From a virus, in IMG/VR virus record IMGVR_UViG_3300025093_000127, positions 1 to 23,292 of that record: DNA of 23,292 nucleotides. One strand, written 5' to 3'. Below, piece after piece: positions 4,271-7,889 of the stretch (position 1 is the stretch's first letter; every line of letters starts with the position of its first letter). Under the pieces are notes generated by a model. It was not told where the DNA came from, ran no database searches, and was given only the letters and a program-made list of their open reading frames with translations. Made by a program: the position numbers and the translations under genes.

Positions 4271-4519
4271 ATGGCAACAGCTAAATTTCATTCGTTGCGT
4301 GGCGAGAAGTCCGCGCTCATCCTCGTTAAGCGCAATGCGCTAATGTTCTCATCCGTACCTGTGTACGTACCACGCACAGGCTTGCCCAAGGGCATTAAGG
4401 AAGGCGAAGAGTTCCCCATCGAAGATGGCTACGTTCTCATTGACATCGTCGACCACGAGACAGGCGAAGTACGCACTACCAGTGACGGTACGCCACTCAA
4501 ACAACTGTCCTACTCGTAG
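4271..4519 (+). CDS. Unknown 82-aa protein with atypical, higher-GC coding sequence
   Basis: The product is a small beta-rich protein: VKRNALMFSSVPVYVPRTGLP (residues about 18-38), then GEEFPIEDGYVLIDIVDHETGEVRTTSDG (45-73). No membrane segment or signal is present. I do not know the family; a small nucleic-acid-binding beta barrel is possible but unproven. The gene uses CTC, CGC, GCG and GAG codons and is close to half G+C, while all its neighbours are strongly A/T. That points either to recent transfer from another genome or to selection for strong expression. It is the first gene of the rightward block and is followed by a 16-bp hairpin, so it is probably transcribed early and alone. Confidence 0.8.
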   Translation: MATAKFHSLRGEKSALILVKRNALMFSSVPVYVPRTGLPKGIKEGEEFPIEDGYVLIDIVDHETGEVRTTSDGTPLKQLSYS

Positions 4520-4540
4520 GACTTTTGTTTTCGTGCTCTG

Positions 4541-4579
4541 TAACAGATACTCTTTTATTATTAAAAGGAGTATCTGTTA
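4541..4579 (+). terminator. Long hairpin after the 82-aa gene
   Basis: AACAGATACTCTTTTA (4542-4557) pairs with 4562-4578 through a TTAT loop, giving 16 bp with one bulged G, extendable by one T-A pair at the base. It starts 22 bases after the stop. There is no U-run on the plus strand after it, so it may be a processing or stability hairpin rather than an intrinsic terminator. Confidence 0.5.
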
Positions 4580-4651
4580 ATACACTCATTACTAATTATT
4601 AGTAATTGTATAGGAATAGCGTTTAATATCAACTCATAATTCCCAAATGTT

Positions 4652-4729
4652 ATGAAAAATTCTGATATTTATGTGGTTACGAACGGATGTTTCACACCAC
4701 AAGATTGGACTGTAAACGAGAATGCGTAA
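4652..4729 (+). CDS. Possible 25-aa peptide within a structured transcript
   Basis: ATG at 4652 opens a 25-codon frame (MKNSDIYVVTNGCFTPQDW start) ending TAA at 4729. The same bases form two hairpins (TGTGGT 4672-4677 with ACCACA 4696-4701; TGGACT 4706-4711 with AGTCCA 4729-4734), and a 14-bp hairpin follows. It could be a leader peptide, or the frame may be accidental inside a non-coding RNA. No homology is apparent. Confidence 0.25.
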   Translation: MKNSDIYVVTNGCFTPQDWTVNENA

Positions 4730-4736
4730 GTCCAGA

Positions 4737-4768
4737 AAAGCTATAATATTGAAAAATATTATAGCTTT
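4737..4768 (+). terminator. 14-bp hairpin with GAAA loop
   Basis: AAAGCTATAATATT (4737-4750) pairs perfectly with 4755-4768 across a GAAA tetraloop and is followed by ATTTACTATTTT. It is a likely transcript end for the small element at 4650-4735, although the T-run is interrupted. Confidence 0.55.
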
Positions 4769-4815
4769 ATTTACTATTTTGGATAACAAGCTATAGTTAG
4801 CGAGTCAGCTATAGT

Positions 4816-4915
4816 GTAAGTAGAATGATGCAGAAATTACATCACTAAGGTATGGGAGACAGCAACCCTTAAATGTAATCCATGTGATTAGTAATAGTTA
4901 TCATTCGTGACTTAC
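4816..4915 (+). ncRNA. Structured RNA element with nested stems and a possible pseudoknot
   Basis: GTAAGT (4816-4821) pairs with ACTTAC (4910-4915), then AATGAT (4824-4829) with ATCATT (4900-4905), then ATTACAT (4836-4842) with ATGTAAT (4873-4879), with GGG (4854-4856) facing CCC (4866-4868) in the middle. In addition ATCAC (4841-4845) can pair with GTGAT (4884-4888), which would cross the inner stem and make a pseudoknot or a switch. No open frame covers it. The family is unknown; it could be a free RNA or a leader for downstream genes. Confidence 0.5.
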
Positions 4916-4929
4916 CCTAAATAGTTATT

Positions 4930-4956
4930 AAACTCTCATCCAACTTGTGAGAGTTT
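4930..4956 (+). terminator. 9-bp hairpin between two RNA elements
   Basis: AAACTCTCA (4930-4938) pairs with TGAGAGTTT (4948-4956), then ATTA. It separates the nested RNA at 4816-4915 from the closed-stem RNA that begins at 4960. Confidence 0.55.
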
Positions 4957-4959
4957 ATT

Positions 4960-5060
4960 AAAAGATTAGGAGGTCGATAGGTGAAAGTCCTATACCTTGG
5001 ATACCGCTTCATTATAAGCATAGACTCCGAGTGGAGAAGAAAGTTCTCGCCTAATCTTTT
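4960..5060 (+). ncRNA. 101-nt closed-stem structured RNA
   Basis: The ends AAAAGATTAGG (4960-4970) and CCTAATCTTTT (5050-5060) are perfectly complementary over 11 bp. Inside lie AGGT-CG-ATAGG (4971-4981), closing a 7-base TGAAAGT loop with CCTAT-ACCT (4989-4997); GCTT (5006-5009) with AAGC (5016-5019); and two alternative pairings, CTCC/GGAG (5025-5036) or GAGAA/TTCTC (5034-5048). The T-rich 3' strand can also act as a terminator tail. No long open frame is present. It is the clearest example of a layout repeated several times in this region. Confidence 0.6.
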
Positions 5061-5082
5061 ATTTTAATCCTTTAAACTTAAA
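5061..5082 (+). repeat. Conserved gene leader, copy 1 of the exact 22-base repeat
   Basis: These 22 bases (ATTTTAATCC then TTTAAACTTAAA) recur exactly at 7393-7414. Looser versions (CCTTAAA-x-TTAAATATT before ATG) precede the genes at 6856, 8267, 8795, 8964 and 9303, and a version precedes the short frame at 7077. The A/T-rich leader probably sets translation starts in place of a Shine-Dalgarno site. Confidence 0.65.
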
Positions 5083-5092
5083 ATCCACAACC

Positions 5093-5383
5093 ATGAATAT
5101 ATCAATAATTAATCAAAAACCATTTTGTCTATATAAAGGCAAAGAAGTAGGAATAGCAACAGGATATTTTGCAGGTGATAAATTTGCAGAAACAGATGGA
5201 GATGAATTCATTACAGAAGTATCAGGAAGAAGCTTTGGATGGACAGACAACCAAGGCATTGGATACAAAAGTGATAAATCTGCATTTACCAGACCTTCTG
5301 TTGATCGTATCATAGAAGAATTGATGAACTATCCATCTTTGATGAAGGTTGCCTCTGATCTTGGTCTAATTAAAACTAAATAA
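5093..5383 (+). CDS. Unknown 96-aa protein
   Basis: The family is not recognised. The N-terminal half is beta-rich with many Gly and aromatic residues (KPFCLYKGKEVGIATGYFAGDKF; FGWTDNQGIGY), and the C-terminal third is helical (PSVDRIIEELMNYPSLMKVASDLGLIK, residues about 67-93). It has no signal peptide or membrane segment. The ATG is preceded by the shared leader repeat, and the gene follows a closed-stem RNA. The next gene starts five bases after its stop, so the two are co-transcribed. Confidence 0.7.
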   Translation: MNISIINQKPFCLYKGKEVGIATGYFAGDKFAETDGDEFITEVSGRSFGWTDNQGIGYKSDKSAFTRPSVDRIIEELMNYPSLMKVASDLGLIKTK

Positions 5384-5715: not shown

Positions 5716-5796
5716 AAGACAGGTATGGTTTTCAGTTTGATATCACATTATGTGATGTCAGAATCCTACTAACACATCTAGCGGACCTGTCTTTTT
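5716..5796 (+). ncRNA. Closed-stem structured RNA ending in a T-run
   Basis: AAGACAGGT (5716-5724) pairs with ACCTGTCTT (5785-5793), followed by TTT. Inside is a 10-bp hairpin TGATATCACA/TGTGATGTCA with a TTA loop (5738-5760) and a weaker CTA/TAG stem with a 7-base loop (about 5768-5781). The outer stem plus T-run would double as an intrinsic terminator, defining an RNA of about 80 nt. It lies 25 bases before the next gene. Confidence 0.55.
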
Positions 5797-6057: not shown

Positions 6058-6216
6058 ATGAAAAAGATTAAAGTTACTCAACACGAGATACAACAAGCTA
6101 TGAAAAGTAATGTTCATAGAAATAAAAAGAAGTATTTTCGTAAATTAAAACACAAGGCAATGCCACATAGAGATGATAGCCTTTATGATGGACACAGACC
6201 TCTCACAAGAGTATAG
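6058..6216 (+). CDS. Possible 52-aa basic protein overlapping the tRNA-like element
   Basis: ATG at 6058, TAG at 6214-6216. It is very basic (KKIKVTQHEIQQAMKSN; HRNKKKYFRKLKHKAMPHRDD) with a predicted helical N-terminal half, so an RNA- or DNA-binding peptide is plausible. It follows the acidic gene by 15 bases. The last 60 bases of the frame are also the 5' half of a tRNA-like fold (6156-6237), so part of the frame may be constrained by RNA structure rather than protein. Confidence 0.45.
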   Translation: MKKIKVTQHEIQQAMKSNVHRNKKKYFRKLKHKAMPHRDDSLYDGHRPLTRV

Positions 6217-6237
6217 GTGCGAATCCTATCATTGCCT
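6156..6237 (+). ncRNA. tRNA-like element with acceptor and T arm but no D arm
   Basis: GGCAATG (6156-6162) pairs perfectly with CATTGCC (6230-6236), leaving T6237 as a discriminator-like base. Directly before the 3' acceptor strand is a textbook T arm: ATAGG, loop TGCGAAT, CCTAT (6213-6229). Between them, CATAGAG (6166-6172) pairs with CTTTATG (6181-6187) over an 8-base loop, and CTCT (6200-6203) with AGAG (6208-6211). No D arm is visible and the middle arm is longer than an anticodon arm. It is either a degenerate tRNA, a D-armless tRNA, or a tRNA mimic. No CCA is encoded. Confidence 0.45.
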
Positions 6238-6238
6238 C

Positions 6239-6838
6239 TATAGTAGTCCTTGTGGCTACTATAATCCCAAGTTGTCGGGATTTAAAACTATAGATGTTGA
6301 ACTATAGTGTGAAATAGACAAAACACCGTGTAATCAGTACCTTTCTTGTAAGGGGAGCAGTTGCACACAAGGGTGGATAGTACAAAGACCTTGCAGGGTT
6401 CTAAAACTATCAGTGTTATAAATAAAGAGTATGGCCTGCAAGCTATATGTGGTTGTTTATAAAATTAGGGATTTGAGCTACTATCCTAGTAAAACGTAAA
6501 ATGCTAAGTTCAAACTAAAAAAAGAACTGGACAATGGGTGAAACCTAAAGCTTATGGTATAGTTGGAAGTGCCTAATCAATATGTAGCAATACATATTGT
6601 ATCCCGAAAGGGCTTATTGAATCTTTGTGCCAGCATTGACGATATAAGACTTAATTGAAGTGTTGTTGGCCAATAACATTGATAAAGAGTAGAACAACTA
6701 TATCTTATTCTGTTACTATGCAGTCAATCATAGTATGGCAAAGTTAATGAAGGATTTTTCTATCCGTGTGCTAACTCCTCATCATAGGAGATCATTAACA
6801 TTTTGAACCGAGTAGTGCTAGGTTTTATTTTTATTTAC
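6239..6838 (+). ncRNA. Large (about 0.6 kb) ornate structured RNA
   Basis: No frame of useful length runs through these 600 bases, yet helices fill them: TATAGTAG/CTACTATA (6239-6263), ATCCC/GGGAT (6264-6281), CACCGTGT with ACAC-GGTG around CCTT/AAGG (6324-6375), GATAGT/ACTATC (6376-6411), CAATATGTA-GCAA-TACATATTG (6578-6599), CCC-GAAA-GGG (6603-6612), ACTATG/CATAGT (6715-6734), and a three-way junction GTTAATG/CATTAAC (6743-6799) holding GGAT/ATCC and CTCCT/AGGAG. CTTGCAGG (6390-6397), in the loop of the GATAGT hairpin, is complementary to CCTGCAAG (6435-6442), an 8-bp pseudoknot. GNRA-type tetraloops (GCAA, GAAA) are typical of folded RNAs. Size and the tRNA-like neighbour recall the GOLLD and ROOL classes found in phages; I cannot confirm membership. 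Confidence 0.6.
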
Positions 6839-6855
6839 TCCTTAAATTAAATATT

Positions 6856-7056
6856 ATGAAAAGAAATGACTTAGCAAAACTAGTAGAATTTATAACAGCA
6901 TTATTAGCATTCTTATTAGCAATAATGGTTATGACAGTAGAAAATATATCCCTAGGATTTCAGGGAAGAATGATAGTTGGTGGATACTTTATATTTGTAT
7001 CACTTTTATGTGTTTGGTTTCTTATACTTAGGCGTATGAAAGAACTAAAAGAGTAA
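6856..7056 (+). CDS. Small protein with two membrane helices
   Basis: The 66 residues contain two hydrophobic helices, about 9-28 (LVEFITALLAFLLAIMVMTV) and 39-58 (IVGGYFIFVSLLCVWFLILR), joined by a short loop, with a basic end (RRMKELKE). This hairpin topology and size are seen in holins and in small superinfection-exclusion proteins. Being in the early accessory region and far from lysis genes favours a membrane-modifying role, but that is inference. The ATG follows the shared A/T leader after the large RNA. Confidence 0.65.
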   Translation: MKRNDLAKLVEFITALLAFLLAIMVMTVENISLGFQGRMIVGGYFIFVSLLCVWFLILRRMKELKE

Positions 7057-7418: not shown

Positions 7419-7889
7419 ATGAACGAAGATAAACCAAAAGCAATTATTGTAGATGTTGACGGAACATTAGCAGATATGAGAGGTATTAGAGGCCCGTTTG
7501 AATGGGATAAAGTACATCTTGATAAACCTCATCAAGATGTTATTGACCTTGTTAATGAGTTAGCGAGTGTTAGAGAACTTATTCCACCTGGAAAACCATT
7601 TAGAGAAATGCCATTTAAATACAAAATCATTATTACCACAGGTAGAGATGGTGTTTGTGAAGATGCAACTAAAAATTGGTTGTTAGAAAACTATATTAAT
7701 TATGATGATTTCTATATTAGAAAAGAAGGTGACTTCAGAAAAGATAACATCATTAAATCTGAAATCTATATGGATCATATCAGACCTAAATATGATGTTG
7801 CATTTGTTATTGATGACAGAGATCAGGTTGTTGAAATGTGGAGGTCATTAGGTTTAAGGGTGTTACAAGTAGCACCAGGAAATTTTTAA
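7419..7889 (+). CDS. Stand-alone polynucleotide 3'-phosphatase of the HAD superfamily (T4 PseT phosphatase domain)
   Basis: This enzyme should remove 3' or 2',3'-cyclic phosphates from nucleic-acid ends so that they can be ligated. All HAD motifs are present: DVDGTLAD with nucleophile Asp12 and Asp14, motif II TTGR (73-76), a Lys in the RKDNIIKSEIY segment (107-117), and VIDDRDQVVEMWRSLGLRVLQVAPGNF (130-156), very close to the end of the T4 polynucleotide kinase/phosphatase. The N-terminal kinase domain of T4 Pnkp is absent, and no kinase or RNA ligase was found in the window. In T4 the enzyme repairs tRNA cut by host anticodon nuclease. Its place beside tRNA-like and structured RNA fits an RNA-repair role, which is inferred. 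Confidence 0.88.
   Translation: MNEDKPKAIIVDVDGTLADMRGIRGPFEWDKVHLDKPHQDVIDLVNELASVRELIPPGKPFREMPFKYKIIITTGRDGVCEDATKNWLLENYINYDDFYIRKEGDFRKDNIIKSEIYMDHIRPKYDVAFVIDDRDQVVEMWRSLGLRVLQVAPGNF

Follow-up and report, generated by a model that had tools for sequence, protein, structure and literature searches.

The window, the 23,292-base stretch of an IMG/VR virus record analysed here, most likely belongs to a Crassvirales-related phage with a Bacteroidota host, as its terminase is closest (33%) to that of the Crassvirales member Cellulophaga phage phi14:2 and its DNA polymerase I shows approximately 40% identity to those of crAss-like phages. When ORFs of at least 50 aa are considered, positions 6217-6855 (639 nt) form the longest gene-free gap in the window, as had been noticed from the sequence alone, with the flanking ORFs ending at 6216 and starting at 6856. 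To the left lies a small ORF (6058-6216, + strand; MKKIKVTQHEIQ..) that overlaps a tRNA-like structure (6156-6236, + strand), and further to the right a HAD-type phosphatase of the PHROG polynucleotide kinase families is encoded (7419-7889, + strand). The second longest gene-free gap, at approximately 4519-5093, shows internal inverted similarity.

The sequence-only reading had placed an ornate RNA at 6239-6838. A real RNA is found there, but its conserved extent, defined by homologues and their alignment, is the shorter 6262-6832 (+ strand). Similarity among the homologues begins at approximately 6262 and ends past a T-rich tail at approximately 6832 while the flanks differ, indicating a discrete RNA gene. 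No reading frame is kept in the homologues of 6262-6832, and a coding function was rejected on these grounds. Both the occurrence of G-U pairs and the T-rich tail at the 3' end point to the + strand.

Eight full-length homologues besides the window, plus one partial copy, were obtained from IMG/VR phage contigs. The L003 copy, 86% identical to the window stretch, was found through the neighbouring phosphatase, while scans for conserved words identified L059, L061, L062, L063, L081, L082, L083 and, for the 3' part only, L086. The nine full-length copies (window included) are 571-589 nt long and share 71-96% pairwise identity, and a covariance model of the 5' domain, R1, matched every full-length member at 164-173 bits. 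A candidate homologue in L085 was rejected as a 17-nt chance match. Weak R1 matches in L099-L101 were also put down to chance, and the two that were read (L099 and L101) resemble coding sequence. BLASTN against 50,697 annotated phages returned no relative of the RNA, and its most conserved motif, looked for in 84,980 bacterial and archaeal genomes, gave one chance match, inside an Acetobacter gene. No description of the RNA was found in the literature searched, subscription journals and bioRxiv being outside its coverage.

Three of the RNA-bearing records exceed 100 kb. The RNA is approximately 80% identical between phages in which a shared polymerase and terminase were not found. It is better conserved than the surrounding genomes and appears to move between phage lineages, with an accessory cassette, since most RNA-bearing records gave no match to the window polymerase or terminase: the polymerase was found only in L086 (33%), and the terminase in none, in a search that had no positive control and in which several records are fragments. 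Separately, gene-poor stretches in L083 (1-900), L003 (5943-6031), L004 (6456-6540), L057 (9548-9625) and L002 (3274-3330) contain several short conserved noncoding elements, 86-98% identical between phages that otherwise differ, which suggests islands of small RNAs so far undescribed.

The genes next to the RNA vary between loci, with different complete ORFs flanking it in different phages, and it is therefore not a leader of one gene. A role as a cis-acting leader or attenuator of the downstream gene would agree with the placement of the RNA on the same strand as the downstream genes, but these genes differ from locus to locus and a terminator-like element ends the RNA in every copy, making such a role scarcely credible. 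This putative, consensus-like 3' end (6805-6831, + strand) consists of a stem, 6805-6809/6821-6825, followed by the T-rich tail, and its loop (GAGTAGTGCTA) is unchanged in all copies.

We searched the window for known RNA families with Rfam, using both gathering thresholds and E <= 10, and no family matched the RNA; at E <= 10 only chance matches to eukaryotic RNAs and a weak tRNA match at the neighbouring element were returned. Four homologues were likewise without any Rfam match, including to GOLLD and ROOL. The ROOL model (RF03087) found nothing in the window (E <= 10), in the four homologues or in seven records containing the RNA or its neighbours, while scoring 130 bits in a positive control, the L. 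salivarius plasmid pMP118. No match to the GOLLD model (RF02032; conserved 3' region) was seen in the window or in nine RNA-bearing records, although this model, too, detects its own members in controls, and R1 did not match the ROOL and GOLLD records searched. The RNA itself gave no tRNA or tmRNA match with ARAGORN or Rfam. A single Rfam search without a match was not considered decisive, because the final Rfam search missed GOLLD in L110 and L106, both of which were found by a later genome search.

Group I and group II intron models also gave no match in the window at E <= 10. A catalytic RNA, be it a self-splicing intron or another ribozyme, would be in keeping with the size, the pseudoknots and the GNRA loops, all typical of large ribozymes and, as to size range, of group I/II introns. 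The same model library does, however, detect a group I intron in L052 (16515-16772, 97.6 bits), and the RNA sits between different whole genes in each phage instead of interrupting a gene or another RNA. We consider a catalytic RNA very unlikely.

The sequence-only reading was correct on several points: the RNA is large and ornate, belongs to a phage, has a tRNA-like neighbour and is reminiscent of GOLLD and ROOL, and a new class was rightly allowed for. Membership of GOLLD or ROOL, which that reading had also entertained, is not borne out by any of the model searches. Like ROOL, the RNA occurs in phages near tRNAs, has pseudoknots and is of nearly equal length (ROOL model, 574 positions), but its conserved motifs are different. 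With GOLLD it shares the large ornate build, loop-loop contacts, a position beside tRNAs or a tRNA-like element and the same two genomic sites; unlike GOLLD, for which many RNAs exceed 800 nt, it measures approximately 575 nt and does not show the two-part 5'/3' conservation. Both GOLLD and ROOL contain disordered long variable linkers, and no such linker is seen within the chain of the new RNA, where the largest insertions are approximately 9 nt. A very diverged member of either family, beyond recognition by the Rfam models, would explain the similar size, the phage setting, the tRNA-like neighbour and the sites shared with GOLLD. Against this, neither model scores at E <= 10 in the window or the four homologues, R1 finds nothing in records of either family, and by eye a short 5' hairpin with a loop pseudoknot and short closing helices are unlike the ROOL consensus structure. 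We regard such a relationship as improbable, and conclude that this large ornate phage RNA, though of the GOLLD/ROOL kind, belongs to neither family and constitutes a new class.

Secondary structure was derived by a scan for stacked pairs kept in the alignment, which yielded 20 helices and bears out the impression that the stretch is full of them. Across the nine sequences, 98.7% of the cells of the 124 pairs are paired, and 59 of the pairs change on both sides, as compared with 24.7 in shuffles and 5-7 when partners were slid. As the helices were chosen on the same alignment on which they were counted, two independent checks were made. Parallel stacks served as a control without physical meaning, and 12 antiparallel stacks with at least three compensatory pairs were found versus 0 parallel ones. 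In a hold-out, helices defined from six sequences pair in 97.2% of the cells of L081, L082 and L083, and in 35-49% when slid. The folding energy of the single sequence is mildly low (z -1.74, with 0 of 20 shuffles as low). Neither complementary octamers nor folding energy proves structure alone; the comparison of nine sequences does, and both the helices and the loop contact of the earlier reading are conserved in the relatives.

The fold (all elements on the + strand) opens with a 5' hairpin, TCCC/GGGA (6265-6280), whose loop forms pseudoknot 1, followed by a helix with 3 covarying pairs (6288-6293/6302-6307). Helices 6324-6327/6372-6375 and 6328-6333/6361-6366 contain 7 covarying pairs and end in an almost invariant tip, AGTACCTTTCTTGT..GGGGAGCAGT. 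Two elements then present the loops of the kissing contact: helix 6376-6380/6407-6411 with inner stem 6387-6390/6397-6400 presents loop A (6391-6396), and helix 6416-6422/6456-6462 with hairpin 6429-6435/6442-6448 presents loop B. The loop of the next hairpin, 6464-6470/6484-6490, forms pseudoknot 3. A multibranch domain (6556-6704) is closed by helix 6556-6565/6695-6704 and encloses a GNRA-loop hairpin with 7 covarying pairs (6578-6599), a CCC-GAAA-GGG hairpin (6603-6612) and helices 6613-6617/6644-6648 and 6660-6667/6672-6679. It is followed by hairpin 6714-6720/6729-6735 (4 covarying pairs) and a helix, 6743-6750/6792-6799, that encloses hairpin 6775-6779/6786-6790. The GNRA-loop hairpins pointed out beforehand hold up across the family, as both tetraloops, 6587-6590 (GCAA) and 6606-6609 (GAAA), are GNRA in 9 of 9 sequences.

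An 8-bp pseudoknot had been predicted between 6390-6397 (CTTGCAGG) and 6435-6442 (CCTGCAAG). The two segments are exactly complementary, although approximately two such 8-nt matches are expected by chance within 570 nt by our estimate. The contact is conserved and covaries. The 8-bp reading was not retained, since the two outer pairs of the eight compete with the covarying stem of each loop. The contact is thus a 6-bp kissing interaction between loop A (TTGCAG, 6391-6396) and loop B (CTGCAA, 6436-6441). A G-C to A-U exchange in L003, L082 and L083 maps to one event, and one U-U mismatch is present in L081. The kissing contact could be intramolecular or intermolecular. Covariation is also seen in two further pseudoknots, and is strong in one of these: pseudoknot 1 (6272-6276/6317-6321, + strand) shows several pair combinations, with at least five changes on the tree and none broken, while pseudoknot 3 (6474-6479/6549-6554, + strand) has two pairs with both-side changes in the L062/L081 lineage and one broken cell, in L083.

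The tRNA-like structure adjoining the RNA has an acceptor stem and T-arm, with one long arm (loop AUGAUAGC) replacing the D and anticodon arms, and scores 18.4 with the Rfam tRNA model (cut-off 29). A pattern scan located the element at 11 loci in addition to the window, among them L061 (458-535, - strand), L059 (1142-1213), L104, L106, L109 and L110 (- strand). Its neighbour is the new RNA in three phages and a GOLLD-like RNA in four, and this shared cassette is a hint as to the RNA's partner or cargo. Two tRNAs occupy 4854-4928 and 5233-5308 (- strand) of L081: a tRNA-Pro, which lies approximately 65 nt upstream of the new RNA, and a weaker tRNA-Ile (anticodon aat). A further small conserved motif occurs at 5718-5791 of the window, at approximately 7190-7245 of L053 and downstream of the tRNA-like element in L102, L103 and L106. 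It has a covarying closing stem GACAGG/CCTGTC (AAGTTATAG/CTATAACTT, AACAAGGT/ACCTTGTT) around UAUGG..CCUACUAANACAUCUAGCG, and its copy in the window gave no Rfam match.

Comparison of the loci revealed that the new RNA is exchanged with a GOLLD-like RNA at two separate genomic sites. Site A is bordered in relatives by the small ORF (MKKI.VTQ.EIQ) on the left and the HAD phosphatase on the right. The new RNA occupies this position in L003 and also in the window, there together with two extra ORFs, while L004, L005 and L006 carry a GOLLD-like RNA gene of approximately 0.85 kb. Over its 3' half, the latter aligns to the entire GOLLD model with 64 bits (E 5e-16), a score under the Rfam cut-off of 150 bits. 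At site B, the exchanged position is followed by the tRNA-like element and a MRNLFEDAMYLFD gene, the protein of which is 98% identical between L110 and L064; the new RNA is present in L059/L064, and L110 has a GOLLD-like RNA instead (46 bits, E 1.7e-12, again below the 150-bit cut-off). DNA relatives of the L004-L006 RNA were found in seven tested records, none of them carrying the new RNA; the records that do carry it contained no such relative other than a 25-base chance match in the L063 record. Among approximately 18 tested records, several of them incomplete, none contained both RNAs. L111 has the tRNA-like element and, following it, a gene 92% identical to that of L061, but no such RNA. 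A divergent GOLLD-like group was observed in Bacteroidota-type phages (L093-L096, L104, L106, L109, L110). Its members score 46-64 bits or are missed by the Rfam model, as in the case of L093 despite 87% DNA identity to L004, indicating that Rfam under-reports GOLLD in these phages. The exchange of sites does not by itself prove equal function with GOLLD.

GOLLD and ROOL, both found in phages near tRNAs and with no sequence or secondary structure in common, form RNA-only cages, a 14-mer and an 8-mer respectively, through kissing loops and A-minor contacts (PMC12286853). The new RNA gene has a conserved fold with three tertiary-type contacts and is present in many different phages. We propose that it encodes a large (approximately 575 nt), independently terminated RNA acting in trans, whose approximately 20 helices would be tied by at least three loop contacts (two pseudoknots and the kissing interaction), leaving GNRA loops free for further docking. 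Expression of GOLLD rises during lysis. The new RNA would be one exchangeable component of a mobile accessory cassette of phages, and we infer that it does GOLLD's job, replacing GOLLD at the same sites and being made during lytic growth. By analogy with GOLLD and ROOL, loop-loop and A-minor contacts would most likely assemble it into a homo-oligomeric, probably hollow, RNA particle, possibly with a cargo; the multimeric reading is favoured because these two RNAs, though unrelated, both form RNA-only cages. Taken together, we consider it reasonably probable that this is a new class of trans-acting ornate phage RNA, interchangeable with GOLLD, most likely homo-oligomeric and probably forming a hollow particle.

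Alternatively, the RNA could stand alone and act on ribosomes, or on a protein of host or phage, as scaffold, decoy or inhibitor. It would then work as a monomer or RNP and build no cage. There is precedent in OLE, which acts in protein complexes, and in raiA RNA, which is a monomer (PMC12286853). These are likewise large, ornate bacterial RNAs without known catalysis, but they are cellular and the new RNA matches no such Rfam family. GOLLD bound ribosomes in pull-downs, and invariant tips such as AGTACCTTTCTTGT could bind a partner. On the other hand, no accompanying protein gene is common to all the RNA loci, and the two-site exchange with a GOLLD-like RNA points to the behaviour of GOLLD, which assembles without protein. 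We therefore judge a monomer or RNP rather unlikely, and prefer an RNA-only oligomer.

Whether nanocages are widespread among large natural RNAs is a question raised in the cryo-EM study (PMC12286853). At somewhat less than even chances, the RNA described here could add a third class to the phage RNAs that form particles from RNA alone. It would be related to neither GOLLD nor ROOL in sequence or fold and would be swapped for GOLLD at the same sites, so that RNA cages would have evolved convergently in phages exposed to the same selection. What GOLLD and ROOL do is unexplained, and an unrelated RNA in GOLLD's place offers a direct test. If the new RNA also multimerises, it would be the particle, and not the sequence, that is under selection; if it does not, the features common to the new RNA and GOLLD would narrow down the function. 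The cassette also ties the new RNA and the GOLLD-like RNA to the same tRNA-like element, which provides a concrete lead to partner or cargo.
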